The notes under the pieces are model-generated. The model did not search any database. It worked only from the letters and a program-made list of their open reading frames with translations, and was not told the DNA's origin. A stretch of DNA of 64,000 nt from Cliona cf. orientalis (taxonomy: Eukaryota; Porifera; Demospongiae; Clionaida; Clionaidae): contig OZ005698.1 in NCBI GenBank assembly GCA_963930775.1, forward strand, positions 2,052,501 through 2,116,500. The letters run 5' to 3'. How positions within the stretch are numbered: the first letter of the stretch is position 1; each line of letters begins with the position of its first letter. The position numbers were made by a program, and so were the translations under genes. Below are positions 38,206 through 63,500 of this stretch, piece after piece.

Positions 38206-40791
38206 ATGAATCAAGCAAGTGCAATCGCAATTTTTGCAGTCATTTTGCTCACAGCAAGTACAGGTCAGTCTATAGTATTATTACTGATGCATGTTCCATG
38301 TACTGTGTTAAAATTTCATTGCTTCTCATGTACATGTGCACTGTCAATTCAAGATGTGCAAGGTCAGCAGGATAGTCACAAGCAACCTTGTCCAGCGGAA
38401 TACAAGTACTAGCTACTGCTTAAATGGAGGAGAGTGCTTTTCCGTTACTATTGCTGGACACACCACCAGGGGATGCCAGTAAGCAGACTGAGAATGTAGC
38501 ATGTTTGATTGATGTAAAAGCTATTGACAACTAAGAATAATCATAGCCTCGTCTGCACCTAGTCACCCCGATTGAAAAAGATTGGGGTGACTGGGGGTGA
38601 GGCTATGAAAATTATATTGTGTACATGCACATGCTCGTACTACAAGTGTCACATGTATATATACCTATATACCCCCTTGTCCTTGTTGTAGGTGTGCTAT
38701 TGGATACACTGGGACTCGATGTCAATTCAGGTCGATTGATTTGGATATTCTATACAGAAATGGACCAGAAAAAGGTATAGCTAAAACAATCGTGCGCATA
38801 GCTAATAGGGACCATTAACTACTATCTAGCTGCCACTCTGTGAATCGTACTAACTCGTTGACGTTAATTCATTATTGCCCATCATGTTCTCACTATTGAT
38901 GCATGTATAATTATTATTATTGTTATTACATGCATACTCCATGTCGCATTATCTTTCACTGCATATTAATTTCAAGATGTGCCAAGTCAGCAGAATAGTC
39001 ACAAGCAACCTTGTCCAGCGGGATACAAGTACTACTGCTTAAATGGAGGAGAGTGCTTTTCCATTACTATTGCTGGACATACCACCAGGGCATGCCAGTA
39101 AGTATAATAATATTATTGCTACAGAGAGCTTGGAAGTGTAATTACGTGCGTACTCATTATTGCTATTATGTAGGTGTGCTATTGGATACACTGGGACTCG
39201 ATGTCAATTCAGGTCGATTGATTTGGATATTCTATACGGAAATGGACCAGAAAAAGGTATAGCTAAAATTTCTGCAACAGTTATGCACATAATATATAGC
39301 TAATAGGGACCATTAATTACTATCTAGCTGCCACTCTGTGAATCGTGATAATTTAATATTACTAGCTCATTGACATTAAATAAATTCATTATTGCCAATC
39401 ATGTTCTCACTATAATTCAATTGATGCTATCAACACAGACAAGTGAGAATGTGTGTGCCCATCCTTGTTAAGCTAAGAACTATCATGTATAGTATATATT
39501 GCATGCATACTCTTGCATGCATACTCCACGTCGCATTAAATTAAAAACTTTCATTGTATCTCACTTCAAGATGTGCAAGGTCAGCAGCATAGTCACAAGC
39601 AGCCTTGTTCAGCGGAATACAAGTACTACTGCTTAAATGGAGGAGAGTGCTTTTCCATTACTATTGCTGGACATACCACCAGGGCATGCCAGTAAGTATA
39701 ATAATGTTGCTATAGAGAGCTTGGAAGTGTAATTATGTATGTGCTCATTATTGCTATTATGTAGGTGTGCTATTGGATACACTGGGATTCGATGTCAATT
39801 CAGGTCGATTGATTTGGATATTCTATACGGAAATGGACCAGAAAAAGGTAGCTAAATTTTTTGCAATGACATGCCAAGATTGCTTGATTATAGCATAGCT
39901 AGCGCTAATCTGGATTACTATCCATGTAGCTGCCACACTATGATACTAATTACAAGCTCATGGTATTCGGCTAGGCAATTCATAAACAGCTGTTCAGCGT
40001 GCGTGTATATACAATGCATTTGTATCGTGCCATTTAATTACCAACCATTAAAAATTTTAAAAATTAATGATATTGAATTTCAGTGGATATTGCCCAACAT
40101 GGTGACCACACGTTACCCTGCCAACCTGGGAATGAATACCACTGCCTCAACGGAGGAACCTGCTTTGTGGTCAATCTAGGAGGTGGACATATTTCCACCG
40201 GGCATGCCAGTGAGTTGCAGCTGGGACATTAATATATTCAACTATTATAGGCGCAGCGGTTGACAATGTGTGCCATACAAACTTGCTATTTATAATACCT
40301 GCAATAGACTCTTATGACAGCCGTTTTCATAGCTGCACGAATAAATTCAGGGACTAGCTATAGTCTACTATGGCATGAAAACTACACCTGCATTACAACT
40401 GTGGCTAGTATTAGCTGATCCTTGCATGCCTATTTTAATTTGCCTTCACAAATAATAATTTTAATAATAGCTATACTGTATAGTAACTTTCAGTAGTAGC
40501 TGCTGATCAGGTGTTAAAAAGGATCCCGGAGCAACTTGTAATGCTGCTCGTTTGAGCCAGCCCTATAACTACCTACATATCTAGTCATTAATTTTATCCT
40601 TGTATACTAATTTCAATAAGATTCTCCATACAGTTGTACCAGTGAATTTACCGGCAGAAGATATGAATATCAAAACATTCCCTTGACCTTCTAGATGATC
40701 TTGACTCGGAACCATATCACGGTAATTTCAGCTAATAGTAAAATTTAATATTCTATGATTAAGCTTTCATTTCAGCAGGTCGCTGAACAAG
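38206..40791 (+). pseudogene. EGF-like secreted peptide gene, block A (damaged)
   Basis: A signal-peptide exon (38206-38263, MNQASAIAIFAVILLTAST) is followed by four two-exon EGF modules: 38354-38478 + 38692-38774, 38977-39097 + 39174-39256, 39571-39691 + 39765-39847, and 40084-40209 + about 40634-40695; then a short terminal exon ending VAEQV-stop at about 40791. Modules 2 and 3 are open with good splice sites (CPAGYKYYCLNGG, ACQCAIGYTGTRCQF). Module 1 has a 4-bp insertion producing TAG. Module 4 has a 1-bp loss before its fourth cysteine and TGT to TAT at its sixth. Every module starts and ends in phase 1, so skipping module 1 would keep frame through modules 2 and 3, with only the C terminus altered. 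A transcript that does this cannot be excluded, but decay is more likely. Confidence 0.65.
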
Positions 40792-41357
40792 TCTGATTTG
40801 GCTACACGGCACAGAGAAATATCATGACCCACCTTTCATTAAAATCATGAACACTTAATAATAGTAGTTTTCAACACTTTTTGCTAGCTAGACTCTAGTA
40901 GTTCAAATTTGCCTCTTCACTGACCAGGATCGCAATAGGCTTTGATATGTGTAACCCGAGTCAGAATAGATTTTAGATTCAGGAATTTAATTTTATCATA
41001 ATTCATTTTGATAATGCTATGATCAAACTTTGGCATGATCTGGAACTTCAGAATTGAAACAGTTCAATAGTTAACTTCGGGTTGTAAAAATTTGTGAGTT
41101 ATTTAGTTATTGGTAATGTTGAATAATGAAATAATCACCGTATCCCTAGTAGCTTCATCTTCATTGTATAAATTATGGTAAAGGGTCACTATAGTAGCAT
41201 ACTTAAGTTATGCAATGTTACGTAATCGTATTATCGAACTGTGCTGAGCCCCACCCATGTTTAGTGCGCATGGGCGATCAATCATGTGACCGGGGAAAGA
41301 GCACCCGCCTCCAGCTCCCGCCTCTACACAAGACCATTAATGTAGCTAGCTAGCAAA
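40792..41357. other. Spacer before UPB1 copy A
   Basis: No gene seen. Matches 59730-60514 apart from insertions there. The last 150 bp contain the likely UPB1 promoter (GAGCCCCACCCATGTTTAGTGCGCATG), conserved in both blocks. Confidence 0.5.
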
Positions 41358-41877
41358 ATGGCAACTGAAGTAGAGAGCTTGGAGAAGTTGCTTGAGTCTG
41401 CAGGGCAGCGAGCTTTGACAGAACATGAACTCTCTGAGGCTAAAAGGATTCTCTACGGAAATCCAGCTCAGTAAGTAAATGTCCCTAAATTGTAAATTTA
41501 TATACTAGACGACCCTTACCAATATTGGATAGTAGGTGGGCAAATTGGAGCTCTAGCCTTGGAGCAAAAATAGCATCTCATCCTAGGAGCAGTTAATCAT
41601 ATGCATTTTTAATCTTGAGTGTACATGTACCTGGGTGTTATACATGCATGTAGCCCCTCTTTTGACTGTGGAATATTAAGTTACCCCTTTAATCAATACT
41701 ACATATAATATGTACGTAATACATAATATTAATTATAAACCTTGCATAAGCTACATACATGTAGATCTATATGTCAATGCAGCCTTTATAATATGCCTAA
41801 ATATCCACAATATATTCCTTCAGGATTGCATGCATGCTTTCATGAACGTGTTCATAGATGTACTGAAGTACATGTGT

Positions 41878-42061
41878 AGGACGGGTTTATAGTTTAATAA
41901 TTGTGTTCTAGTCAAATTGCGAATCCAATAATTGCGATGGACGACCCCGTACCGTACTATAATAATATACGTGCACGTTTATGTTTGCGAATCTATTAAT
42001 TGCGAAACGTACAAAAACTCCCAATTCGCAATTAATAGGTACTCACATTTAAAACTTGAAC
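41878..42061. mobile_element. Degenerate AATTGCG-type MITE in UPB1 A intron 1
   Basis: AGGACGGGTTTATAGTTTAATAATTG at the left and AATTAATAGGTACTC at the right place it in the same family as 45889-46093 and 63363-63569, but its terminal CCGTAGG ends are eroded. Confidence 0.5.
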
Positions 42062-42337
42062 TATGATAATCCATGTCCCTTCTCCTTAATTCGCCCTTTG
42101 CCCTCCCCCTTGATGAGTGAAACCCTGCTCATTATCTTCTGCAGATCACTGGAAGTTCCTGCGAGTGCCTAGAAGCTAGCCGATGAGAAGAACTTTGAGA
42201 TCAAGATGTGTCGTATTGGAGCGGCCAGTGAGCAGATTCATCCTCCGCGCCTGGTCCGAGTAGCTGTGGTACAGAATACAATCGTCAGACCAACCACAGA
42301 CCCCGTCAAGGAACAGGTAAGGTAGTCTTGTTTAATA

Positions 42338-42910: not shown

Positions 42911-44846
42911 AGGCCTGATATACTGTAGTATCACGGGTAAGCGCCCATGGGTGCTTAAACCATTATCTATGCTTAAATATTTATACATGTGTAACTCGCA
43001 ATATTGCCCATACCCGGTTTGAATAGAAGCTGCTACATTGAGCCCTTAACACTGCTGTGTAATACAAAGAGGTGTTACGATAATATTTTACTGATTATGT
43101 GATTGTAGATTGAAGCTTTGCACCAGCGTGTGATCACTGAAATGACAGAGGCAGCTTACCAGTGTGGGACTAATGTCATATGCTACCAGGAGGCCTGGAG
43201 TGAGTTAATGGAGTAATTCAATGTACCTTAGGAGTGGGGACTCACTTTAGTGCACATGTCAGGGGCGTAGCCAGGATTATAGGTAAGGGGGTGCTGGAGT
43301 ACGCGCACAAAGTGCGTGCGCAAAATTTTAATATTATTTAAAATTTTAAGCCACACCCACTTATTAACCGTCAAGGTCGAAGTTCAAATTGTCAAAGAAT
43401 ATGCGTTCTGAATGTAGCTAGCATGCTAGCTCAAGGTTTTCAGCCAGATCTTGGGATAAGATAAGTTTCTAACTGTCTTCTAAGCTGTTTTTTTGTAGTA
43501 TAATATGATAGTTTTGGAGTTACTAAAGAAAATGTATTGGGCTATTCCAGTTAATAAGGATACACCCCTATGGAGGAGCAGTTTGGGTATTTATACCCTC
43601 AACACTTAATTAACTGATTATACCCCTATGATACAATGATTAAACTAAGAATTCAGATCACCAAAATTTAAATTTCGCTAAAATATCTACTGAGAGTCAA
43701 TTCACCAAACTAACTCAATGGATCTCTGATACAATGATTAGAACTTGAATACTATCCCATATCACTTAATATTATTAGTTAATTAATTAATTAACTCATG
43801 ATACACTTGCATAATACCAATTATGTGTCATAATAATATTATTATTACCTATACTATAATTAGTTGGCCTAAGAGATAACTCAGAGACCTACTAGCTTCT
43901 AAGTTATCCCTCATCAGGCAGTGTTGCCATGGCATAGCTACCGTATAGCGGGAAGTTTTTGAGGGAGAAAACTTTCACGGATCAGTAGGAAAGGAGCATT
44001 TCGCGGAGAAAACTTTCACAGAATGTTAAAACTGGTCGCATAATGGGTGCAGCATGCCTAAAATTTCATGGAGAAAACTTTCGCGGATGGCTGAAAAATC
44101 GCAAAATTTGTGAAAGTTTTCTCCCTCGAAAGTTTCCCACTACACAATATAACATCATAGTACAAGTTGGTTACACACACCGATTGGTTCAGTCTCTATG
44201 CTTCTTAAGGTTGAGTCGGTAAGTTATCCACATGCAACCTACATGTATACTAACATCACTCTCCACTAAAGTATTCATAATAATATTATTATAATTATTC
44301 AAATGAGTGTAGACTACCATAGTAACAATAGATGATTTCCAACTTCAGCGCTAGTGGAGATCATCCAGCATGGAATACTGCTATTTTCATCCACTGACTA
44401 TTTTACAGTACCTTAGGTGCAGTTTGAGCTTAAGTGCTCTAAGGTACCCACAGCATGGCTTAATTATTATTAGCCATTGTCATCTCTAGCTGGTCAGCTA
44501 GCTGTGCCCTTTTATCAATGCACCCCCCTCCCCAAATTTTGATTATGCCCACCAACTATGATTAAGGATTGAGGTATATAGACAATCGTTTTGGTACAGT
44601 ACCTTGGATTACCGTTATAAGGGAAACAGGCAATCATTAACTTTGATGTTCCTAACGTTGCAGGTCAGTAATTTTTAATGATGTATTCAACTTCATTTTT
44701 CTTTTGCATATCAAACTTCTTGAAATCTTCCTTCAGTGATTATCTGGCTCTAGCTGAACAAAGTAATCCCCCAATTACCAAACCATGATTAGTGTGATGG
44801 GGTGGTTCAGTGATGTATTCAAGTAGCAGCAAATTAAAGGGCCAGG

Positions 44847-45499
44847 CAGTGGGATAGCTATACCAGAGCCTACCAGGGCACAGGCCCAGGCCAAACTGGT
44901 CTGTGCCATGGTAAAATAGCCAATTTACGGATCAAGTATATACCTCAAAGCAAAAACAAGTGGATCACGTTAGCCTATAATGAGGGTTATAATACTTTAG
45001 TATCACATAATTCTCCCATGACAGTTTTCAACATAATCCAATTAATCATAGTAATTAACACAGTGTTCACTCCACCACACGTAATTATGTCAAGCATGCA
45101 TGCCAGTCTGGCATATTTGCACATACTTCTTGTCCAATCTTGAAAACTATCATGGGACTAGTACAATTAAGTAGTAAGTGCAAGTAATATTATGCCAGTT
45201 TAAACTCACATGTTTGATATACATGTAGTTATGTATAGTGGATCCGATCGAGTGAATAGTTCATTAATCACTATGATTAACTGAGTTATTTTGAGAACCA
45301 TCATGGGAGAAGGTAGTGCATGTGCATGCAACTTAGGCAACCCACTTGTTTTGGCTGTGAGGTATATAGCTGTTGCAAATGTAATAAAATTTTTTCATTG
45401 GGTTGGGAGAGATCGAGGTCGATAAGAGTCTCAAATTCTCAAGTCATCACTGGGTCCACCAAGTGCCTGGGTAACTTTACAAGTCTAGATACGCCACTG
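44847..45499. mobile_element. hAT-like element inside array unit 1
   Basis: 653 bp, ends CAGTGGGATAGCTATACC / GTCTAGATACGCCACTG, flanked by GGGCCAGG and GTGCCAGG (7 of 8 match). The equivalents in later units were copied with the array. A related copy in opposite orientation is at 57094-57772. Confidence 0.8.
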
Positions 45500-45888
45500 G
45501 TGCCAGGTGGCACACTATTAGGGCATAAAAATTGCCTATTACGTCAAGGTGACATGCAAATTTGTACACAAAAGTATAGGGGTGCATTTAAATAGTGTAA
45601 ATGGTGCACTTCAGGCCAAGGTGGTACATGTATCACGGGCATGTTAATTAGATCGGCTACGGTAACCCCTCGACCCAATTAATTATTACAGAATGACCGT
45701 ACCCCAAGTACACAAATTACTTCAGTATGGATGACCCTCTAAACTCAATTAATTCTTGGTATATTATGACCCCTTAGTATAATAATTGAATTTTGAGAAA
45801 TCAACCCCTCAATACCAACTTCCTCCATAGGGGTGTATCCTTATTAACTGGAATAGCCCAATTCACCAAACTTATTGCTTTCCAGCTA

Positions 45889-46093
45889 CCGTAGGACGAG
45901 TTTTAATTGCGTAGTTAATAATTGTGTTCTAGTCAAGTCAGGCCAAATTGCGAATCCAATAATTGCGTGGACGACCCCGTACCGTACTGTAGTATACGTG
46001 CACGTTTATGTTTGCGAATCTATTAATTGCGAAACGTAGAAAAACTCGCAATTCGCAATTAATAGATACTCGCAATTAAAACTCGACCTACGG
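45889..46093. mobile_element. TA-flanked CCGTAGG MITE at an array junction
   Basis: 205 bp with ends CCGTAGGACGAGTTTTAATT / AATTAAAACTCGACCTACGG and TA on both sides. The interior carries AATTGCGAATCC-type repeats. Copies recur at about 48260-48465 and 50628-50833. Confidence 0.85.
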
Positions 46094-49000
46094 TATACGG
46101 TAACTCAATGGATCTCTGATACAATGATTAGAACTTGAATACTACCCCATATCACTTAATATTATTAGTTAATTAATTAATTAATTAACTCATGATACAC
46201 TTGCATAATACCAATTATGTGTCATAATAATATTATTATTACCTATACTATAATTAGTTGGCCTAAGAGATAACTCAGAGACCTACTAGCTTCTAAGTTA
46301 TCCCTCATCAGGCAGTGTTGCCATGGCATAGCTACCGTATAGCGGGAAGTTTTTGAGGGAGAAAACTTTCACGGATCAGTAGGAAAGGAGCATTTCGCGG
46401 AGAAAACTTTCACAGAATGTTAAAACTGGTCACATAATGGGTGCAGCATGCCTAAAATTTCGTGGAGAAAACTTTCGCGGATGGCTGAAAAGTCGCGAAA
46501 TTTGTGAAAGTTTTCTCCCTCGAAAGTCTCCCACTACACGATATAACATCATAGTACAAGTTGGTTACACACACCGATTGGTTCAGTCTCTATGCTTCTT
46601 AAGGTTGAGTCGATAAATTATCCACATGCAACCTACATGTATACTAACATCATGAACTCTCCACTACAGTATTCATAATATATTCAAATGAGTGTAGACT
46701 ACCATAGTAACAATAGATGATTTCCAACTTCAGCGCTAGTGGAGATCATCCAGCATGGAATATTGCTATTTTCATCCACTGACTATTTTACAGTACCTTA
46801 GGTGCAGTTTGAGCTTAAGTGCTCTAAGGTACTCACAGCATGGCATATAATTATTATTAGCCATTGTCATCTCTAGCTGGTCAGCTAGCTGTGCCCTTTT
46901 ATCAATGCACCCCCCTCCCCAAATTTTGATTATGCCCACCAACTATGATTAAGAATTGAGGTAGACAATCGTTTTGGTACAGTACCTTGGATTACCGTTA
47001 TAAGGGAAACAGGCAATCATTAACTTTGATGTTCCTAACGTTGCAGGTCAGTAATTTTTAATGATGTATTCAACTTCATTTTTCTTTTGCACATCAAACT
47101 TCTTGAAATCTTCCTTCAGTGATTATCTGGCTCTAGCTGAACAAAGTAATCCCCCAATTACCAAACCATGATTAGTGTGATGGGGTGGTTCAGTGATGTA
47201 TTCAAGTAGCAGCAAATTAAAGGGCCAGGCAGTGGGATAGCTATACCAGAGCCTACCAGGGCACAGGCCCAGGCCAAACTGGTCTGTGCCATGGTAAAAT
47301 AGCCAATTTACGGATCAAGTATATACCTCAAAGCAAAAACAAGTGGATCACGTTAGCCTATAATGAGGGTTATAATACTTTAGTATCACATAATTCTCCC
47401 ATGACAGTTTTCAACATAATCCAGTTAATCATAGTAATTAACACAGTGTTCACTCCACCACACGTAATTATGTCAAGCATGCATGCCAGTCTGGCATATT
47501 TGCACATACTTCTTGTCCAATCTTGAAAACTATCATGGGATTAGTACAATTAAGTAGTAAGTGCAAGTAATATTATGCCAGTTTAAACTCACATGTTTGA
47601 TATACATGTAGTTATGTATAGTGGATCCGATCGAGTGAATAGTTCATTAATCACTATGATTAACTGAGTTATTTTGAGAACCATCATGGGAGAAGGTAGT
47701 GCATGTGCATGCAACTTAGGCAACCCACTTGTTTTGGCTGTGAGGTATATAGCTGTTGCAAATGTAATAAAATTTTTTCATTGGGTTGGGAGAGATCGAG
47801 GTCGATAAGAGTCTCAAATTCTCAAGTCATCACTGGGTCCACCAAGTGCCTGGGTAACTTTACAAGTCTAGATACGCCACTGGTGCCAGGTGGCACACTA
47901 TTAGGGCATAAAAATTGCCTATTACGTCAAGGTGACATGCAAATTTGTACACAAAAGTATAGGGGTGCATTTAAATAGTGTAAATGGTGCACTTCAGGCC
48001 AAGGTGGTACATGTATCACGGGCATGTTAATTAGATCGGCTACGGTAACCCCTCGACCCAATTAATTATTACAGAATGACCGTACCCCAAGTACACAGTA
48101 TGGATGACCCTCTAAACTCAATTAATTCTTGGTATATTATGACCCCTTAGTATAATAATTGAATTTTGAGAAATCAACCCCTCAATACCAACTTCCTCCA
48201 TAGGGGTGTATCCTTAACAGGAATAGCCCAATTCACCAAACTTATTGCTTTCCAGCTACCGTAGGACAAGTTTTTAATTGCGTAGTTTAATAATTGTGTT
48301 CTAGTCAAGTCAGGCCAAATTGCGAATCCAATAATTGCGTGGACGACCCCGTACCTTACTGTAGTATACGTGCACGTTTATGTTTGCGAATCTATTAATT
48401 GCAAAACGTAGAAAAACTCGCAATTCGCAATTAATAGATACTCGCAATTAAAACTCGACCTACGGTATACGGTAACTCAATGGATCTCTGATACAATGAT
48501 TAGAACTTGAATACTACCCCATATCACTTAATATTATTAGTTAATTAATTAACTCATGATACACTTGCATAATACCAATTATGTGTCATAATAATAATAT
48601 TATTACCTATACTATAATTAGTTGGCCTAAGAGATAACTCAGAGACCTACTAGCTTCTAAGTTATCCCTCATCAGGCAGTGTTGCCATGGCATAGCTACC
48701 GTATAGCGGGAAATTTTTGAGGGAGAAAACTTTCGCAGATCAGTATATAGGAAAGGAGCATTTCGCGGAGAAAACTTTCACAGAATGTTAAAACTGGTCA
48801 CATAATGGGTGCAGCATGCCTAAAATTTCGTGGAGAAAACTTTCGCGGATGGCTGAAAAGTCGCGAAATTTGTGAAAGTTTTCTCCCTCGAAAGTCTCCC
48901 ACTACACGATATAACATCATAGTACAAGTTGGTTACACACACCGATTGGTTCAGTCTCTATGCTTCTTAAGGTTGAGTCGATAAATTATCCACATGCAAC

Positions 49001-52000
49001 CTACATGTATACTAACATCATGAACTCTCCACTACAGTATTCATAATATATTCAAATGAGTGTAGACTACCATAGTAACAATAGATGATTTCCAACTTCA
49101 GCGCTAGTGGAGATCATCCAGCATGGAATATTGCTATTTTCATCCACTGACTATTTTACAGTACCTTAGGTGCAGTTTGAGCTTAAGTGCTCTAAGGTAC
49201 TCACAGCATGGCATATAATTATTATTAGCCATTGTCATCTCTAGCTGGTCAGCTAGCTGTGCCCTTTTATCAATGCACCCCCCTCCCCAAATTTTGATTA
49301 TGCCCACCAACTATGATTAAGAATTGAGGTAGACAATCGTTTTGGTACAGTACCTTGGATTACCGTTATAAGGGAAACAGGCAATCATTAACTTTGATGT
49401 TCCTAACGTTGCAGGTCAGTAATTTTTAATGATGTATTCAACTTCATTTTTCTTTTGCACATCAAACTTCTTGAAATCTTCCTTCAGTGATTATCTGGCT
49501 CTAGCTGAACAAAGTAATCCCCCAATTACCAAACCATGATTAGTGTGATGGGGTGGTTCAGTGATGTATTCAAGTAGCAGCAAATTAAAGGGCCAGGCAG
49601 TGGGATAGCTATACCAGAGCCTACCAGGGCACAGGCCCAGGCCAAACTGGTCTGTGCCATGGTAAAATAGCCAATTTACGGATCAAGTATATACCTCAAA
49701 GCAAAAACAAGTGGATCACGTTAGCCTATAATGAGGGTTATAATACTTTAGTATCACATAATTCTCCCATGACAGTTTTCAACATAATCCAGTTAATCAT
49801 AGTAATTAACACAGTGTTCACTCCACCACACGTAATTATGTCAAGCATGCATGCCAGTCTGGCATATTTGCACATACTTCTTGTCCAATCTTGAAAACTA
49901 TCATGGGATTAGTACAATTAAGTAGTAAGTGCAAGTAATATTATGCCAGTTTAAACTCACATGTTTGATATACATGTAGTTATGTATAGTGGATCCGATC
50001 GAGTGAATAGTTCATTAATCACTATGATTAACTGAGTTATTTTGAGAACCATCATGGGAGAAGGTAGTGCATGTGCATGCAACTTAGGCAACCCACTTGT
50101 TTTGGCTGTGAGGTATATAGCTGTTGCAAATGTAATAAAATTTTTTCATTGGGTTGGGAGAGATCGAGGTCGATAAGAGTCTCAAATTCTCAAGTCATCA
50201 CTGGGTCCACCAAGTGCCTGGGTAACTTTACAAGTCTAGATACGCCACTGGTGCCAGGTGGCACACTATTAGGGCATAAAAATTGCCTATTACGTCAAGG
50301 TGACATGCAAATTTGTACACAAAAGTATAGGGGTGCATTTAAATAGTGTAAATGGTGCACTTCAGGCCAAGGTGGTACATGTATCACGGGCATGTTAATT
50401 AGATCGGCTACGGTAACCCCTCGACCCAATTAATTATTACAGAATGACCGTACCCCAAGTACACAGTATGGATGACCCTCTAAACTCAATTAATTCTTGG
50501 TATATTATGACCCCTTAGTATAATAATTGAATTTTGAGAAATCAACCCCTCAATACCAACTTCCTCCATAGGGGTGTATCCTTAACAGGAATAGCCCAAT
50601 TCACCAAACTTATTGCTTTCCAGCTACCGTAGGACAAGTTTTTAATTGCGTAGTTTAATAATTGTGTTCTAGTCAAGTCAGGCCAAATTGCGAATCCAAT
50701 AATTGCGTGGACGACCCCGTACCTTACTGTAGTATACGTGCACGTTTATGTTTGCGAATCTATTAATTGCAAAACGTAGAAAAACTCGCAATTCGCAATT
50801 AATAGATACTCGCAATTAAAACTCGACCTACGGTATACGGTAACTCAATGGATCTCTGATACAATGATTAGAACTTGAATACTACCCCATATCACTTAAT
50901 ATTATTAGTTAATTAATTAACTCATGATACACTTGCATAATACCAATTATGTGTCATAATAATAATATTATTACCTATACTATAATTAGTTGGCCTAAGA
51001 GATAACTCAGAGACCTACTAGCTTCTAAGTTATCCCTCATCAGGCAGTGTTGCCATGGCATAGCTACCGTATAGCGGGAAATTTTTGAGGGAGAAAACTT
51101 TCGCAGATCAGTATATAGGAAAGGAGCATTTCGCGGAGAAAACTTTCACAGAATGTTAAAACTGGTCACATAATGGGTGCAGCATGCCTAAAATTTCGTG
51201 GAGAAAACTTTCGCGGATGGCTGAAAAATCGCGAAATTTGTGAAAGTTTTCTCCCTCGAAAGTCTCCCACTACACGATATAACATCATAGTACAAGTTGG
51301 TTACACACACCGATTGGTTCAGTCTCTATGCTTCTTAAGGTTGAGTCGATAAATTATCCACATGCAACCTACATGTATACTAATATCATGAACTCTCCAC
51401 TACAGTATTCATAATGAGTGTAGACTACCATAGTAACAATAGATGATTTCCAACTTCAGCGCTAGTGGAGATCATCCAGCATGGAATATTGCTATTTTCA
51501 TCCACTGACTATTTTACAGTACCTTAGGTGCAGTTTGAGCTTAAGTGCTCTAAGGTACTCACAGCATGGCTTATAATTATTATTAGCCATTGTCATCTCT
51601 AGCTGGTCAGCTAGCTGTGCCCTTTTATCAATGCACCCCCCTCCCCAAATTTTGATTATGCCCACCAACTATGATTAAGGATTGAGGTAGACAATCGTTT
51701 TGGTACAGTACCTTGGATTACCGTTATAAGGGAAACAGGCAATCATTAACTTTGATGTTCCTAACGTTGCAGGTCAGTAATTTTTAATGATGTATTCAAC
51801 TTCATTTTTCTTTTGCACATCAAACTTCTTGAAATCTTCCTTCAGTGATTATCTGGCTCTAGCTGAACAAAGTAATCCCCCAATTACCAAACCATGATTA
51901 GTGTGATGGGGTGGTTCAGTGATGTATTCAAGTAGCAGCAAATTAAAGGGCCAGGCAGCAGCATAGCTATACCAGAGCCTACCAGGGCACAGGCCCAGGC

Positions 52001-53302
52001 CAAACTGGTCTGTGCCATGGTAAAATAGCCAATTTACGGATCAAGTATATACCTCAAAGCAAAAACAAGTGGATCACGTTAGCCTATAATGAGGGTTATA
52101 ATACTTTAGTATCACATAATTCTCCCATGACAGTTTTCAACATAATCCAGTTAATCATAGTAATTAACACAGTGTTCACTCCACCACACGTAATTATGTC
52201 AAGCATGCATGCCAGTCTGGCATATTTGCACATACTTCTTGTCCAATCTTGAAAACTATCATGGGACTAGTACAATTAAGTAGTAAGTGCAAGTAATATT
52301 ATGCCAGTTTAAACTCACATGTTTGATATACATGTAGTTATGTATAGTGGATCCGATCGAGTGAATAGTTCATTAATCACTATGATTAACTGAGGAGAAC
52401 CATCATGGAGAAGGTAGTGGCATGTGCATGCAACTTAGGCAACCCACTTGTTTTGGCTGTGAGGTATATAGCTGTTGCAAATGTAATAAGATTTTTTTCA
52501 TTGGGTTGGGAGAGATCGAGGTCGATAGGAGTCTCAAATTCTCAAGTCATCACTGGGTCCACCAAGTGCCTGGGTAACTTTACAAGTCTAGATATATACG
52601 CCACTGGTGCCAGGTGGCACACTATTAGGGCATAAAAATTGCCTATATATTACGACAAGGTGACATGCAAATTTGTACACAAAAGTATAGGGGTGCATTT
52701 AAATAGCGTAAATGGTGCACTTCAGACCAAGGTGGTGCATCTATCACGGGCATGTTAATTAGATTGGCTACGGTAACCCCTCAACCCAATTAATTATTAC
52801 AGAATGACCGTACCCCAAGTACACAAATTACTTCAGTATGGATGACCCTCTAAACTCAATTAATTCTTGGTATATTATGACCCCTTAGTATAATAATTGA
52901 ATTTTGAGAAATCAACCCCTCAATACTTAATCAACTTCCTCCATAGGGGCGTATCCTTATTAACTGGAATAGCCCATTGTTAGTGTAGTGGGAAACTTAC
53001 ATAAGGTGTTAATGATTTGGTGAAGTTTTCAATGGTCATTAAAGCTTAAAATCTCCAATAATTATTAAATAATAATTATACTATGCTCACCAAAATATTT
53101 GCCTGCTATACTGTTGTACTGGCAAATTGTGGAAGCCTATATATTGAATGCATGAGGGGGGAGGGACTGTAGAGGTGCTGCTTTTTATGCTTTTTTCCAT
53201 TCAACAGCTTGTCCATTCTTCTTCTGCACTCGTGAGAAGCTACCCTGGACAGAATTTGCTGAGTCAGCAGAAGATGGTATCACCACAACTCTCGTCAAAG
53301 AG

Positions 53303-55796: not shown

Positions 55797-58700
55797 ATGA
55801 ATCCAGCAAGTGCAACTGCAATTTTTGCGATCATTTTGCTCATAGCAAGTACAGGTCAGTCTACTGACGTATGTTGCATGCACGCACCACGTACTGTGTT
55901 AAAATTTCATTTCTTCTCATGTGCAGGTGCACTGCCAATTCAAGATGTGCAAGATCAGCCGGAATATCCTGCTATTAGTCACAAGAAACCTTGTCCAGTG
56001 GGATACGAGGAGTACTGCTTAAATGGAGGAAAGTGCTTTACCGTTACTGTTGCTGGAATTACCACCGGGCCGGCATGCCAGTAAGCAGACTGATAATACA
56101 GCATGTTTGGTTGATGTAAAAGCTATATATAGAGAGCTAAGTCAAAGAAGTATATTTAATTTTATAACAATAGCCTCGTCTGTGCCCAGTCACCCCGATT
56201 GAAAAAACTTGGGGTGACTGGGGATGAGGCTATAAAAATTTTTATTGTGTACAAGCACATGCTCATACTACAAGTCTCGCATGTATACCTCAGCTCCTTG
56301 TGCTTGTTGTAGGTGTGTTCTTGGATACAGTGGGACTCGATGTCAATCCAGGTCACTTCATTTGGACCTTCTAGATTATGTATTCAGAAATGGACTGGAA
56401 AAAGGTGGCTAAATTTTTTGCAATAATCACATAATAGGGACTATTTCATACCAATCAAGATGTGCCAACATTGTTTGATCGTAGCATAGCTAGCGCTAAT
56501 CTGGATTACTATCCATGTAGCTGCCACTGGCACTATGATATTAATTACGGCGAGCTCATGATATTTGGCTAGGCAATTCATGAACAGCTGCTTGTGCATG
56601 TACATGCATGCATTTGTATCGTGCCATTCAATTACCGACCAATACAATGAATAATATTGAATTTCAGTGGACATTGCCCAACACACGTCATCCTGCCCAC
56701 CTGGGAAGGACATCAACTGCCTCCATGGAGGAACCTGCTTTGTGGTCAATCTAAGACATGGACATGTTTCCAGCCCATCATGCCGGTGAGTTGCAGCTGG
56801 GACATTCAACTATTATAGGCACAGTGGTTGACAATGTGTGCCATACAAACTTACTATAATACCTGCAATAGACTCTTATGACAGCCGTTTTCATAGCTGC
56901 ATGAATAAATTCAGGGCCTAGCTATAGTCTATTATGGCATGGAATTTGAAACTACACCTGCATTATAACTGTGGCTAGTATTAGCTGATCCTTGCATGCC
57001 TATTTTTGCCTTTACAAATAATAACTAGAGCTCTGTAGAGCACATACCCCACGCGCACATTGCGCAATCTATAGAGTTACTTTCGGTGCATGGCAGTGGC
57101 GTATCTAGACCTGTCACGTTACCCGGGCACTTGGTGGACCCAGTAGTGACTTGAGAATTTGAGACTCCTATCGACCTCGATCTCTCCCAACCCAATTAAA
57201 AAAAAATCTTATTACATTTGCAATAGCTAGCTATATACCTCACAGCCAAAACAAGTGGGTTGTTAACCCATAAATTAATTGTGGGTTGCCTAAGTTGCAT
57301 TGCATATGTGTACAAGCGCTACCTTCTCCCATGATGGTTCTCAAAATAGCTCAGTTAATTGTAGTGATTAATGCAGTATTCACTCCACTATACACATAAT
57401 TATGTCAAACATGCGAGTTTGTTAATAATAAACTGGCATAACATTACTTGCACTTACTACATAGTTGTCCCATGATAGTTTTCAAGACTGGACAAGAAGT
57501 GTGTGCAAATATGTCAGACTGGCATGCATGCTTGACATAATTATGTGTAGTGGAGTGAACACTGTGTTAATTACTATGACTGGATTATATGTTGAGAGCT
57601 ATCATGGGAGAATTAAAACGTGTAGTATACCCTCATTATAGGCTAACATGATCCACTTGTTTTTGCTTTGAGGTACTTGATCCTTAAATTGGCTATTAAT
57701 TTTACCAGGGCACAGGCAAGTTTGTCCTGGGCCTGTGCAGCCCTGGTAGGCCCTGGTGTAGCTACGCCACTGGTGCATGGCTATAATTTTGTGAACGTCA
57801 GAGAAATAATGGAAATGCTGCTTTATAATAGTTGTACTGGGGGTTCCAGTGACACTTGAACTTGAAAGCGCTCTCTGCACCCAGACCTAGCCCAGACTAG
57901 GAAGACATAAATTTTTACCTATATTTGTTGTAACAATAGTAGTATAGCTATGATTGGTTCCATAGGGCAGTCACTATACATCGCGAGCATTATTTAGAAC
58001 ATCGACGATCTTTACCAGTCATACGCTTGGCCACTTAGTTGTGCGCATGAGCAGAAAGCATAATTGGCATGCATATGCATTGTGGGCACTATCGATAGGT
58101 GTGGCTACGGTGGCCAACAAAAAGGCACTATTTATGACGCTCGTGGACCGTATTCCTCAATTTGACGCACACTGAAGCCAGTTTTTTGCCGAATTCGATT
58201 GATTTATTGTGATTACGAGTCGCTTAGACGCCTACATCTCGAGATAGCATAGCACGACAACGACAACTAGAGCTCTGTAGAGCACATACCCCTCGCGCTG
58301 CAGTGTCGACGACCTTTACCTACATAATAATGCCAGGTTATCTGGTTATGCGCATGAGCAGAAAGCACATGGTGGGTAGTGTCCATAGGCGTGGCCAACA
58401 AAATGCAGTATTTGCGATGCTTGTGGACCTTGCCAAACGATTCGAAGCATAATGAAGCCAGTTTTTCGACGATATCGACGGATATACTGTACTTACGAGT
58501 CGCTCAGATGCCTAGATCTCCAGGTCCGGCGATTTTTGTGCTAACAACAGACACAACCGATCACTTTACCCCTTGCGCATGCGCACGGGGTAACTAGAGC
58601 TCTGTAGAGCACATACCCCGCGCGCTGCAGTTTTGACGACCTTTACCAACATATTGTGCTAGGTTGTGCGCATGAGCAGAAAGCATATTATGGTGGGTAG

Positions 58701-59729
58701 TGTCCATAGGCGTGGCCAACAAAATGCAGTATTTGCGATGCTTGTGGACCTTGCCAAACGATTCGAAGCATAATGAAGCCAGTTTTTTGACGATATAGAC
58801 GGATATACTATACTTATGAGTGTTGACGACCTTTACCTACAAATTGTGCCAGGTTGTGCGCATGAGCAGAAAGCACATGGTGGGTAGTGTTGATAGGCGT
58901 GGCCAACAAAATGCAGTATTTGCGACGTTCATGGACCTTACCAAACGATTCGAAGCACAATGAAGCTGTACTTACGAGTCGCTCAGACTCCTAGATCTCC
59001 AGATCTGGCGATTTTTGTGCTAACGACAGACGACAGACAAAACCGATTACTTTACCCCTTGCGCATGTGCGCGGGGTAACAACAGACACAACCGATCACT
59101 TTACCCCTTGCGCATGCGCGCGGGGTAACAATGACGATAACAACGACGACACGACCGATTACTTTACCCCTTGCACATGCGCGCGGGGTAATAATTAATA
59201 ATTATAATAATAGCCATACTGTATAGTAACTTTCAATAGTAGCTGCTGATCATGTGTTAAAAAGGATCCCGGAGCAACTTGTAATGCTGCTCGTTTGAGC
59301 TAGCCCTATAGCTACCTACATAATATATATCTATAGTCATTAATTTTACTCTGTGTCTACAGTGCCGGTACCGGCACCGCAATTTAAGCGTTATAGTGCC
59401 GGTAAGACCATATAAAATACTGTACTCTTATGTAGCCCTAGTCCCCGCCCCCTCCTGCATATGGCAATATAGAATTTTGTAAATAAATTTGCCGGCACTC
59501 TAGACACTGCATTAATCTTATCCTTGTATACTATTTTCAATAAGATTCTCCATACAGTTGTACCAGTGAATTTACCGGCAGAAGATGTGAATATCAAAAC
59601 ATTGCCCATGACCCTCAAGAAAATCATAACCGGGTACCATATAATTATCAGGTAATTTCAGCTAATAGTAAAATTTAATGTTCTATCATGGTTAAGCTTT
59701 CATTTCAGGAGGTTGCTGAACAAGTCTGA
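55797..59729 (+). CDS. Secreted twin-EGF growth-factor-like peptide, block B (intact)
   Basis: Exons 55797-55854, 55945-56080, 56313-56404, 56668-56785, 59558-59651 and 59709-59729, all GT-AG and in phase, give 172 residues. Residues 1-19 are a signal peptide. EGF module 1 has Cys 36, 44, 50, 64, 66, 75 (spacing C-x7-C-x5-C-x13-C-x-C-x8-C). Module 2 has Cys 105, 113, 119, 134, 136, 145 (x7, x5, x14, x, x8). Module 1 reads YCLNGGKC and GYSGTRCQSRSL, matching the GYxGxRCQxRxL region of EGF-receptor ligands, including the positions of Arg41 and Leu47 of human EGF. There is no transmembrane segment; the C terminus is polar and ends VAEQV. The role is inferred as an extracellular signal. Other EGF-containing proteins (adhesion, matrix) are possible, but the short size and ligand-type spacing favour a peptide ligand. 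Confidence 0.82.
57030..59195. repeat. Repeat cluster in EGF-B intron 4
   Basis: About 3.5 tandem, variously truncated copies of a 230-330 bp unit starting ACTAGAGCTCTGTAGAGCAC and ending CTTTACCCCTTGCGCATGCG-CGGGGTAA (starts near 57027, 58266, 58591). The last 150 bases are three repeats of the tail alone. The first copy is split by the hAT-like element at 57094-57772. None is present in block A, whose equivalent intron is 40210-40633. Confidence 0.75.
57094..57772. mobile_element. hAT-like element with perfect 8-bp target duplication
   Basis: 679 bp, ends CAGTGGCGTATCTAGACC / GGTGTAGCTACGCCACTG, flanked on both sides by GTGCATGG (57086-57093 and 57773-57780). It is homologous to the 44847-45499 element in opposite orientation. 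Open frames are short and no transposase is seen. Confidence 0.9.
59354..59508. mobile_element. Small TIR element in EGF-B intron 4
   Basis: Inverted ends CTGTGTCTACAGTGCCGG / CCGGCACTCTAGACACTG. It is flanked by ATTAATTTTA and ATTAATCTTA; block A has the uninterrupted site CATTAATTTTATCC near 40588. Confidence 0.7.
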
Positions 59730-60514
59730 TTTGGCTACACGGCACAGAGAAGTATCATAACCCACCTTTCATTAGAATCACGAACACTTTAACAAGAGTA
59801 GTTTTCAACTCTTTTTGCTAGCTAGTAGTTCAAACTTGCCTCTTCACTGACCAGGATCCCGATAGGCTTTGATATGTGTAATCTGAGTTAGAATAGATTA
59901 TAGATTCAGGAATTTTAATTTTAAATTTTGATATTAAATCACATGATCGCGCGGCTATGATCAAACTTTGGCATGATCTGGAACTTCAGAATTGAAACGA
60001 TTCAATAGTTAACTTCAGGTTGTAAAAATTTATGAGTTATTTAGCTATTAAATGTTGAATACCGTATTTCTTCTAAAAATTCGGCCCTTCTAATTATTCG
60101 GCACCCTTTACCGAATGATTGAATATAGTCTCTAATTTTTCGGCAAAGGTCGTCACGTGTATATGCTATAAACGGGAATGGAATGCGCACGCAGACGGAA
60201 TGTTGAATATTAACCTCTAAAAATTCGGCGAAGCTAAAGCAATATTGTTATTTTCATGCCGAATTTTTAGAAGAAATACGGTAATGAAATACCGGTAATC
60301 ACCACATCCCCTAGTAGCTTCATTGTATATGGTAAAGGGTCACTATAGTAGCATACTTAACTTAAGTTATGCAATGTTACGTAATTATTCACAATCGCAC
60401 TGTACTGAGCCCCACCCATGTTTAGTGCGCATGCGCATATGCATGGGTGCTCAATCATGTGACCGGCCGGGGAGAGAGCACCCGCCTCCAGACTGTGCTG
60501 AGCTAGCTAGCAAA
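59730..60514. other. Spacer and UPB1 B upstream region
   Basis: No gene apart from the MITE at 60062-60281. GAGCCCCACCCATGTTTAGTGCGCATG and the CCGCCTCCAG block before the ATG are shared with copy A and probably contain the promoter. Confidence 0.5.
60062..60281. mobile_element. TA-flanked MITE, CCGTATTTCTTC ends
   Basis: 220 bp, TA on both sides, ends CCGTATTTCTTCTAAAAATT / TTTTTAGAAGAAATACGG. TTCGGC motifs are repeated inside. Absent from the block A equivalent near 41130. Confidence 0.87.
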
Positions 60515-63500
60515 ATGGCAACTGAAGTAGAGAGCTTGGAGAAGTTGCTTGAGTCTGCAGGGCAGCGGGCTTTGACAGAACATGAACTCTCTGAGGCTAA
60601 AAGGATTCTCTACGGAAATCCAGCTCAGTAAGTAAATGTCCCTAAATAATTTTGTAAATTTATATACTAGACGACCCTTACCAATATTGGATAGTAGGTG
60701 GGCAAATTGGAGCTCTAGCCTCTGGAGCAATGAATGCACAAGAGTGCAGAACCCTCACCGCTACATGCATGCATGACTCATGCACTTGTAGATCTATAGC
60801 ATGTCTCATGTGTATGCCTGCTGAACTATTGAACTGGTATTTAACTAGCTACACATCCTGCATCTGGACAGGGTTCTGGTACTAGAGTCAGTGAATGATC
60901 TAGGAGTTGGGGAAGGCACCTGGCTATGTCACTATATAAACTGAAAGCCTCCATGACATACGTGAAACTGAATTAGCTGTGCACTTAAGAGCCACTGCCT
61001 GTTTACACTGTCACTGCATTGACGACTGACCAGCAAGGCACAGTGTGGCAATCAGTCATGTAGCTGAGGTAGGTGCCATATAAACAGACTGGCAGCAGCT
61101 GTGCACACCACTACATAGTCTATCGAGCTAGACCCTTCCTTGCGCTTGTATTGTACGCGCGGGGGGAAGGGTCTAGCAAAGGTCACGTTTAATTGAATTT
61201 CAGCTGACCAATCAGATTCAACTATCCAAATTCTGGATAGCAATTTATGCGTGGGCGAACGCTCGCAATCAGTGCTTATTCACGATTTTGAGCTAGCTGT
61301 TGCTCTTTCGCTTGGATCATTTTGTATGGCACTGAAGTACTAGTACTACAGAGGCAATAGCGGGCGACCATTTTTTGAGAGCTGCCAGAGGAGAATCGAT
61401 CATTGAAACGGGAGAGAGTCCGTTCAACACTTGTTTGATCACTGTCCCAGCCAGGTCAGACAAGCGGAATGCCTTCTACTCGCTACCTCTGTATATTTCG
61501 GCGATCATTGAGAAATTCTCTGTACCAGCGAAGAGCTACCAACCTTGCCATCAGCATCATTTTTGCTGCTTTTCTCGCTCACGTTTCCGCGTTTTAATTA
61601 ATTTCATTCCAAACGTGACCTTTGCTAGACCCTTCCCCCCGCGCGTACAATACAAGCGCAAGGAAGGGTCTAGCTCGATAGACTAACCACTACACTGCTG
61701 GGTGTGACCACTCTTCCTTGATGCCTGGTATACCTCAAATGTGTACTTTCTCTCCGATGATCCTTACCACTTACTTAACACAGGACAGACGGATGGACAA
61801 ACGATTGCAGCAACCCTCCGCCTACACTTTGTGACGAGGGTTAAAAATAGCACCTCATCCTAGGAGCAGTTAATCATATGCATTTTAATCTTGAGTTTAC
61901 ATGTACCTGAGTGTTGTACATGTATGTAACCCCTCTTTTGACTGTGGAATATTAAGTTACCCTTTAATCAATACCACATACATGTACGTAATATTAATTA
62001 TATACCTTGCATAAACTACATACATGTATTACTTAGACACTGTTTAGGAGGTTTCTATGTGATTTAGAAGACCAAAGGACTCTATATAGAATCCCGAGCG
62101 AAGCGAGGGTTCTATGAGAGCCCTGAGACAGACATTGTCTAACAATATTCCTTCAGGATTGCATGCATGCTTTCATGAACGTGTTCATAGATACCGAAGT
62201 ACATGACATATAATCCGTGTCCCTTCTTCTTACTTCGCCCTTTGCCCTTCCCCTTGATGAGTGAAACCCTGCTCATTATCTCCTGCAGATCACTGGAAGT
62301 TCCTGCGAGTGCCCAGAAGCTAGCCGATGAGAAGAACTTTGAGATCAAGATGTGTCGTATTGGAGCGGCCAGTGAGCAGATCCGCCCTCCGCGCCTGGTC
62401 CGAGTAGCCGTGGTGCAGAATGCAATCGTCAGACCAACCACAGACCCCGTCAAGGAACAGGTAAGGTACATGTAGTCTTGTTTAATATACATGTACATGT
62501 ACATGCAGCTAGGGCCTGACATACTGTAGTGTCATGGGTAAGCGCCCATGGGTGCTTTTAAAACATAACTCGCAATTTTGGCTCACATGGGCACTTATCC
62601 AGGATAAATTTTTTAGAAGCTGCTATGAGCCCTTAACACTGCTGTGTAATACAAAGAGGTTTCACGATAATATTTTACTGATTATGTGATTGTAGATTGA
62701 AGCTTTGCACCAGCGTGTGATCACTGAAATGACAGAGGCAGCTTACCAGTGTGGGACCAATGTCATATGCTACCAGGAGGCCTGGAGTGAGTTGATGGAG
62801 TAATTTAATGTAGATTAGGAGTGGGGACTCACTTTAGTGCACATGTGCGAATTACTAAAGAAAATGTATCAGAGGAGTAGGAAGCAATAAAAAAGTGGGG
62901 GGGGGGGGGGGGGGGGGGCATACAAACCGACGCAGAATAGGTTGGGGCCGAAGGCCCCTGCTGCTTGCAGCTCTCCTAGGGTGGTCTAGGGGCATGCTTC
63001 CCTAGAAAATTTTGAAATTTTAGGTATTACTAGATGTTTTCTGAGGCATTTTGGGGACTAAAATTTAAATCAGTTATTCCTGTGTAATTAGGCTCATTCA
63101 GGCAGTAAGGAAATTTATTTCAACAATGCATGGTATAAAATTCACAATAAATTCCTAAGTTAGCTAATTAGTATAAGAAAGTTTAGACTCAAAAAGTGAA
63201 GGGGCTATGCCCTCCTTCCTAGAAAAGTTGGGGGGGGGGGGGGGGGGGCTCCTACCCCTCTGTGTATTATTGGTGTAGTGGAAAACTTAACGTAAGGTGT
63301 TAATGATTTGGTGAAATTTTCAATGGTCATCAAAGCTTAAAGTCTCCGATAACTATCAATTACCATAGGACGGGTTTTAATTGCGTAGTTTAATAAATGC
63401 GTTTTAGTCAAGTCAGGCCAAATTGCGAATCCAATAATTGCGATGGACGACCCCGTACCGTACTGTAGTATACGTGAACGTTTATGTTTGCGAATCTAAT

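Follow-up and report, generated by a model that had tools for sequence, protein, structure and literature searches.

The question raised by this locus is whether a sponge gene with two EGF modules encodes a signalling ligand of the ErbB type or an EGF-repeat protein of another kind. The gene lies on the plus strand at positions 55797-59729 of a 64,000-nucleotide stretch of DNA from the bioeroding demosponge Cliona cf. orientalis (C10:2052501-2116500, here termed the window), and searches were extended to a genome of 216.8 Mb in 149 contigs. Our reading is that its product is probably a soluble ErbB-ligand-type protein with a paracrine role in the sponge, and we place the probability of this at roughly 65%. 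The splice structure was deduced from the DNA sequence and comprises six exons with GT/AG at all five introns and junction phases of 1, 2, 1, 2 and 0, predicting a product of 178 amino acids that ends at a TGA stop. The exons are as follows.

55797..55854, plus strand: exon 1, start codon (ATG) and signal peptide, with a hydrophobic stretch and a GT donor in phase 1
55927..56080, plus strand: exon 2, linker followed by Cys1 to Cys4 of EGF module 1, with an AG acceptor, a GT donor and a phase 2 intron between Cys4 and Cys5
56313..56404, plus strand: exon 3, remainder of module 1 (Cys5-Cys6), with GYSGTRCQSRSL (from the splice model and PDB alignment)
56668..56785, plus strand: exon 4, linker followed by Cys1 to Cys4 of EGF module 2, with a phase 2 intron between Cys4 and Cys5
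59558..59651, plus strand: exon 5, remainder of module 2 (Cys5-Cys6) plus the C-terminal tail (from the splice model)
59709..59729, plus strand: exon 6, final 6 codons and TGA (from the splice model)

As read from the sequence, the intact ErbB-ligand-like gene model is confirmed. The predicted protein consists of a signal peptide (called on hydrophobicity alone), a linker of approximately 20 residues, module 1 (Cys 42-81), a second linker, module 2 (Cys 111-151) and a 27-residue tail. A hydrophobicity scan detected no second membrane-span-like stretch in the 178 residues, and together with the gene model this bears out the original prediction of a short product with a signal peptide and no membrane anchor. 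Two matches to the Pfam EGF family were obtained (whole-protein E = 2.5e-10). The cysteines of module 1 lie at residues 42, 50, 56, 70, 72 and 81, and those of module 2 at 111, 119, 125, 140, 142 and 151, giving spacings of x7/x5/x13/x1/x8 and x7/x5/x14/x1/x8, respectively. ErbB-ligand modules follow a consensus of x7/x4-5/x10-13/x1/x8, which module 1 satisfies and from which module 2 deviates with 14 residues in the third loop. The ligand-type spacing C-x7-C-x5-C-x13-C-x-C-x8-C predicted earlier for module 1 is therefore present in the spliced product.

The residues at receptor-contact positions were compared using EGF numbering, in which Cys6+5 corresponds to Leu47. In module 1 Arg80 directly precedes Cys6 and Leu86 occupies Cys6+5, confirming the prediction of Arg and Leu at the positions of EGF Arg41 and Leu47; the corresponding residues of module 2 are Arg150 and Ile156. 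Alignment with mouse EGF places Tyr, Leu, Gly, Tyr, Gly, Arg and Leu of module 1 at EGF positions 13, 15, 18, 37, 39, 41 and 47. The control set comprised 50 distinct EGF modules with x1/x8 ends from other loci of the same genome, chosen via weak matches to the 178-residue protein or via receptor-domain searches. In this small, non-random set (24 of the 50 come from one locus), Arg preceded Cys6 in 10 modules, Leu occupied +5 in one, both were present in 0/50 and x7/x5/x10-13 spacing was seen in a single module. The combination of Arg, Leu and spacing in module 1 exceeds chance.

With a limit of E = 10, a phmmer search of PDB with the 178-residue product gave 40 sequences, 28 of them either ErbB ligands or chimeras of EGF and TGF-alpha (best E 8.9e-10), the ligands matched being EGF, Spitz, neuregulin, betacellulin, TGF-alpha, epiregulin, epigen and HB-EGF, with chimeras counted. 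They filled 25 of the 26 rows at E up to 0.051, the remaining row being the ant venom peptide Mg1a (E 8.7e-5). The best row outside the ErbB ligands and Mg1a was EDIL3 (E 0.096), and Notch 1 first appeared at E = 0.83; neuregulin 1 heads the rows whose best stretch is module 2. An open module (38977-39256) of copy A, the upstream sister copy of the gene described below, matched Spitz first (8.9e-11), with ErbB ligands in the top 17 of 42 rows and Mg1a also matched (E 5.7e-5). As a Notch-type control, three adjacent EGF modules of a C17 gene of the same genome were searched in the same way. No ErbB ligand was present among the best 60 of 86 matches (E up to 0.001), which were instead Delta, Notch, Jagged, coagulation factors and similar proteins. 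PDB is biased towards studied families, and this control indicates that Notch and coagulation EGF modules are well covered in it too. Notch, Delta, coagulation or matrix EGF modules were not among the best matches of the modules studied here, and the ranking of both the product and the copy A module against the C17 control upholds their assignment to the ErbB-ligand type rather than the Notch or matrix type.

A phase 2 intron splits both modules between Cys4 and Cys5, and likewise the two open modules of copy A. Stein and Staros proposed a splice site at this position, together with a nearby transmembrane segment, as a mark of ErbB ligands; in their account the site is general among ErbB ligands and absent in fly Spitz and Keren (PMC1618406). 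In the gene described here the splice-site half of the marker is found twice and the transmembrane half is not found; the intron in both modules strengthens the case for a predicted ErbB ligand. The same introns bear on the alternative that the gene encodes an ordinary matrix or adhesion protein, or a fragment of one, with EGF modules of Notch or fibrillin type. EGF modules are common in this genome (150 matches were scored, many in open frames of 2927 and 3322 amino acids), which speaks for such an origin, but the short gene model is complete with start, signal and stop, its modules carry Cys4-Cys5 introns, and ErbB ligands rank before Notch, unlike in the C17 control. We consider a matrix protein very unlikely.

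The gene is one of two copies of a tandem segmental duplication. In the upstream copy (copy A), identity to the region of the gene described above (copy B) is 81-86% for blocks at 38.0-41.6 kb and approximately 95% for those at 42.1-43.3 kb. The following features were recognised in copy A.

38206..38263, plus strand: signal-peptide exon
38336..38774, plus strand: first module-1 exon pair, disrupted by an altered acceptor AG, a frameshift and a stop
38977..39256, plus strand: second module-1 exon pair, open, phases 1-2-1, the module closest to Spitz
39571..39847, plus strand: third module-1 exon pair, open
40084..40209, plus strand: module-2 exon, frame shifted before Cys4
40634..40796, plus strand: remnants of exons 5-6, with the sixth Cys codon changed to Tyr

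The module-1 exon pair is thus present three times in copy A, with the second and third open; both open modules retain six cysteines and have Ile at Cys6+5. Whole modules could be duplicated in copy A without loss of frame because the exon pair of the module starts and ends in phase 1. In copy B the frame is unbroken and all 12 cysteines and every splice site are kept. Copy B is the intact copy of a duplicated locus and copy A is decaying. It could be asked whether the locus as a whole is heading for decay and has no present function. Copy A is damaged at several places, and an in-frame stop interrupts a neighbouring gene on its side of the duplication (see below). Differences between the copies fall on 74 of 515 exon sites and 183 of 1814 other aligned sites, so that exons have not diverged less than the remainder, a count taken from a single automatic alignment, where exons may be matched to the dead exon pair. 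Set against this are the intact frame, 12 cysteines and splice sites of copy B and the six cysteines kept in both open modules of copy A, and decay without function seems to us improbable. A protein search of the genome gave 19 matches at E up to 10, of which 12 lay inside the two window copies and the other 7 had E of at least 0.22; no further paralogue was recognised by this search. A match on C104 was considered as a ligand exon and rejected, as the sequence there is repeated, has many stops and lacks an EGF start.

Several observations weigh against the ligand interpretation. The product has two EGF modules instead of the one of ErbB ligands and, contrary to the transmembrane part of the Stein and Staros marker, no membrane span near an EGF module. 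A scan of 56405-60480 found one plus-strand hydrophobic frame (57816), barely at threshold and within intron 4; the part of intron 4 that holds it is without a counterpart in copy A, and copy A has no frame at threshold. The Cys4-Cys5 splice site is shared by modules of mucin and meprin, for which a ligand role is described as unproven (PMC1618406). A Notch chain appears at row 18 (E 4.1e-5) in the PDB search with the copy A module. When module 1 of copy B was compared with each open copy A module, nonsynonymous divergence (dN) was 0.185 and 0.214 and synonymous divergence (dS) 0.093 and 0.095, with no purifying selection between the sister modules (Fisher p = 0.20 on whole-number counts). A canonical EGFR was not found in the genome by Recep_L, Furin-like and kinase searches, in which a gene on C5 was the only one examined of 16 domain IV matches. 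The protein predicted from this C5 gene, a candidate receptor considered below, has Gly, Pro, Gln, Tyr and Arg at EGFR positions 350, 355, 382, 412 and 438, all differing from EGFR, position 355 being near an alignment gap so that the C5 partner residue is uncertain. Ligand-contact positions in EGFR include 382, 412 and 438. Stein and Staros name 350 and 355 among the residues that contact the ligand (PMC1618406). With these residues changed, the contacts of Arg41 and Leu47 with the C5 protein would not be the familiar ones. The changes between the two copies hint at a lack of protein constraint and at fast change, neither of which is proven. The lack of a transmembrane segment, taken with the existence of soluble ligands (PMC4914847), led us to term the protein ligand-like rather than a strict member of the ErbB ligands.

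Under the ErbB-ligand reading, the most likely mode of action of the predicted protein is as a soluble signal. If the gene is expressed, the signal peptide would export the ligand from the cell, and both modules would present the surface of Arg and Leu (or Ile). In animals the Arg/Leu surface of EGF docks on domain III of an EGFR-like receptor. Being linked, the two modules could join two receptors with no need for a membrane-bound precursor.

The search for a canonical EGFR bears on what such a ligand might bind. No Furin-like match occurred together with an L domain in the genome. With an EGFR kinase query the top match was at C12:707500 (41% identity, with shorter partial matches up to 50%), a kinase presumably of Src type as judged by eye. 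Nine kinase pieces, also judged by eye, are taken to be Src-, FAK-, Eph-, ACK- and FGFR/Tie-like, with one unclassified. The pattern KWMALE occurs at 6 sites in the genome, none of them near L-domain, domain IV or Furin-like matches. Three of the sites were examined: two appeared MET-like by eye, and the site at C3:11356314 had EGFR (one long chain) as its top match, with MET, ErbB2 and TRK scoring almost as well. All 6 KWMALE sites were outside the list of EGFR-kinase matches, indicating that the kinase search misses exons and that absence of an EGFR kinase is unproven. The published assembly (odCliOrie1.1, 217.17 Mb in 307 scaffolds) has a BUSCO score of 80.8% complete with 11.9% missing (PMC12639293), and absences in this genome are accordingly weakly founded. 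Kinase-bearing EGFR is present in other sponges (PMC3001462, PMC4914847). Absence of EGFR from Cliona is possible.

Two further L-domain loci were rejected as EGFR. The C7 gene has two L domains, its kinase is nearest that of the insulin receptor, and its ectodomain matches ErbB3 (1.4e-7) about as well as the insulin receptor (1e-6). When joined by hand, the receptor kinase at C7:9708500-9718400 has the catalytic loop HKDFAVR, the usual loop being HRDLAAR. The C17 Recep_L match contains an internal stop and lies beside a large protein of EGF and laminin-G type, these domain names being our assignment by eye. Clusters of tyrosine-kinase exons were observed at C15:6.7-7.06 Mb and C11:8.47-8.75 Mb; of four pieces from them, three on C15 are presumably Eph-like and one on C11 FGFR/Tie-like, as judged by eye.

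The failure to find a canonical EGFR in the searched genome also bears on a different role, in which the protein is an EGF mimic released outwards that acts on the EGF receptors of predators or fouling animals and not on the sponge. Some venom EGF peptides act on EGF receptors of other animals, and a soluble, anchorless and duplicated gene whose sister-copy changes lean to amino-acid replacement, with the ant venom peptide Mg1a among its PDB matches in both searches, could be of this kind. Mg1a is only one row, however, and stands below the leading ordinary ligands in each search; the replacement excess is non-significant, and the EGFR absence is as weakly founded as the BUSCO completeness implies. 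An outward mimic is in our estimation quite unlikely.

Pfam Recep_L gave 4 matches in the genome: the two on C7, the one on C17, and one on C5. The C5 gene, on chromosome 5 (C5:10249697-10252878), has six exons with GT/AG junctions and predicts a single-pass EGFR domain III-like protein of 627 amino acids. This comprises a signal peptide, a Recep_L domain (E 1.2e-24) and a first domain IV unit, whose match (E 9.7e-6) is below the curated cut-off. A stalk rich in Ser and Thr follows, then a membrane span near residue 318 and a tyrosine-bearing tail of 287 residues in which YDTI occurs once and YESV twice. The L1-CR1-L2-CR2 arrangement is not seen in the ectodomain, which has one L domain and one partial CR unit straight after the signal peptide. 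Its best PDB match was domains III-IV of fly EGFR (2.4e-30), and the best 60 of 73 matches (E up to 1e-10) were EGFR, ErbB or nematode LET-23 chains, one of the 60 being named only receptor protein-tyrosine kinase. A profile built from 30 kinases of the same genome, which recovers the exon-split kinase of the C7 gene, detected no kinase in C5:10236700-10276000. A genome search with the C5 ectodomain gave four matches, all within the C5 gene itself. The original suggestion that the ligand might bind a receptor tyrosine kinase is not supported: the sole EGFR-type L domain recognised in the genome is in this predicted kinase-less protein. The C5 protein is the best receptor candidate from sequence, and the presence of an EGFR-type ectodomain gene in the same genome counts in favour of the ligand reading. 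As a receptor, the C5 protein would have to act as a decoy or co-receptor, or via a cytoplasmic kinase. The last of these could amount to a sponge ErbB-type axis without an ErbB kinase, running from two-module ligand to C5 receptor to cytoplasmic kinase in the manner of cytokine receptors, and might be either a derived loss or a relic of the joining of ectodomain and kinase; we consider this arrangement unlikely.

Other features of the window surround the two copies. Beta-ureidopropionase-like first exons lie downstream of each EGF copy, at 41353-42330 and 60513-62475 (PDB E 2.5e-15 and 2.2e-12, respectively), and exon 2 of this gene has an in-frame stop beside copy A and none beside copy B. 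A unit of 2.4 kb is repeated head to tail approximately four times at 43711-52976, with 96-98% identity between copies, the longest open frame in one unit being 101 amino acids. Part of this unit is inverted within intron 4 of the EGF gene (57094-57772, approximately 80%). Diverged repeats (copies 87-90% identical) are also present in intron 4 at 58265-58966, adjoining stretches that by eye read TTTACCCCTTGCGCATGCGC. A search for tandem repeats of up to 500 bases found none.

Compared with EGF-type ErbB ligands such as vertebrate EGF and TGF-alpha and fly Spitz, the predicted protein shares module spacing, Arg/Leu positions and best matches, and differs in its two modules, short soluble form, lack of a membrane span and third loops of 13 and 14 residues. 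The Cys4-Cys5 intron is common to the gene and vertebrate ErbB ligands, whereas fly Spitz lacks it. The C5 gene shares domain III, the start of domain IV and a membrane span with ErbB/EGFR, and differs in having neither domain I nor II, no kinase and changed contact residues. By its description, the EGF-type ligand of Amphimedon queenslandica is likewise a sponge protein of EGF type proposed as an ErbB ligand (PMC4914847). Planarian Smed-egf-6 and -7 are also soluble and anchorless, and the Cliona protein differs from them in its tandem modules and sponge host (PMC4914847). Barberan et al. (2016) listed one EGF ligand and one EGFR for A. queenslandica and stated that biochemical tests are still needed for the putative ctenophore and sponge ligand-receptor binding (PMC4914847). 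The original prediction of a very early EGF-type signal is overstated in that this would not be the first, since a sponge EGF ligand and EGFR were published in 2016. As described there, the survey admitted only ligands with a single EGF motif and receptors that have a kinase (PMC4914847), so that neither the two-module ligand gene nor the C5 gene would have passed, and comparable genes of other sponges may have gone unnoticed. No tandem-module sponge ligand or kinase-less sponge EGFR was described in the open-access titles and abstract openings that our literature searches listed. The tandem soluble design, the decaying sister copy and the predicted kinase-less, EGFR domain III-like C5 protein are new. 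The timing of the pairing of EGF ligand with EGFR is at issue, one account placing the emergence of EGFR in Bilateria (PMC8662651), in tension with the 2016 survey (PMC4914847). To this question the gene described here brings a concrete ligand candidate with the intron signature of the family, and the C5 gene a concrete candidate partner for it.

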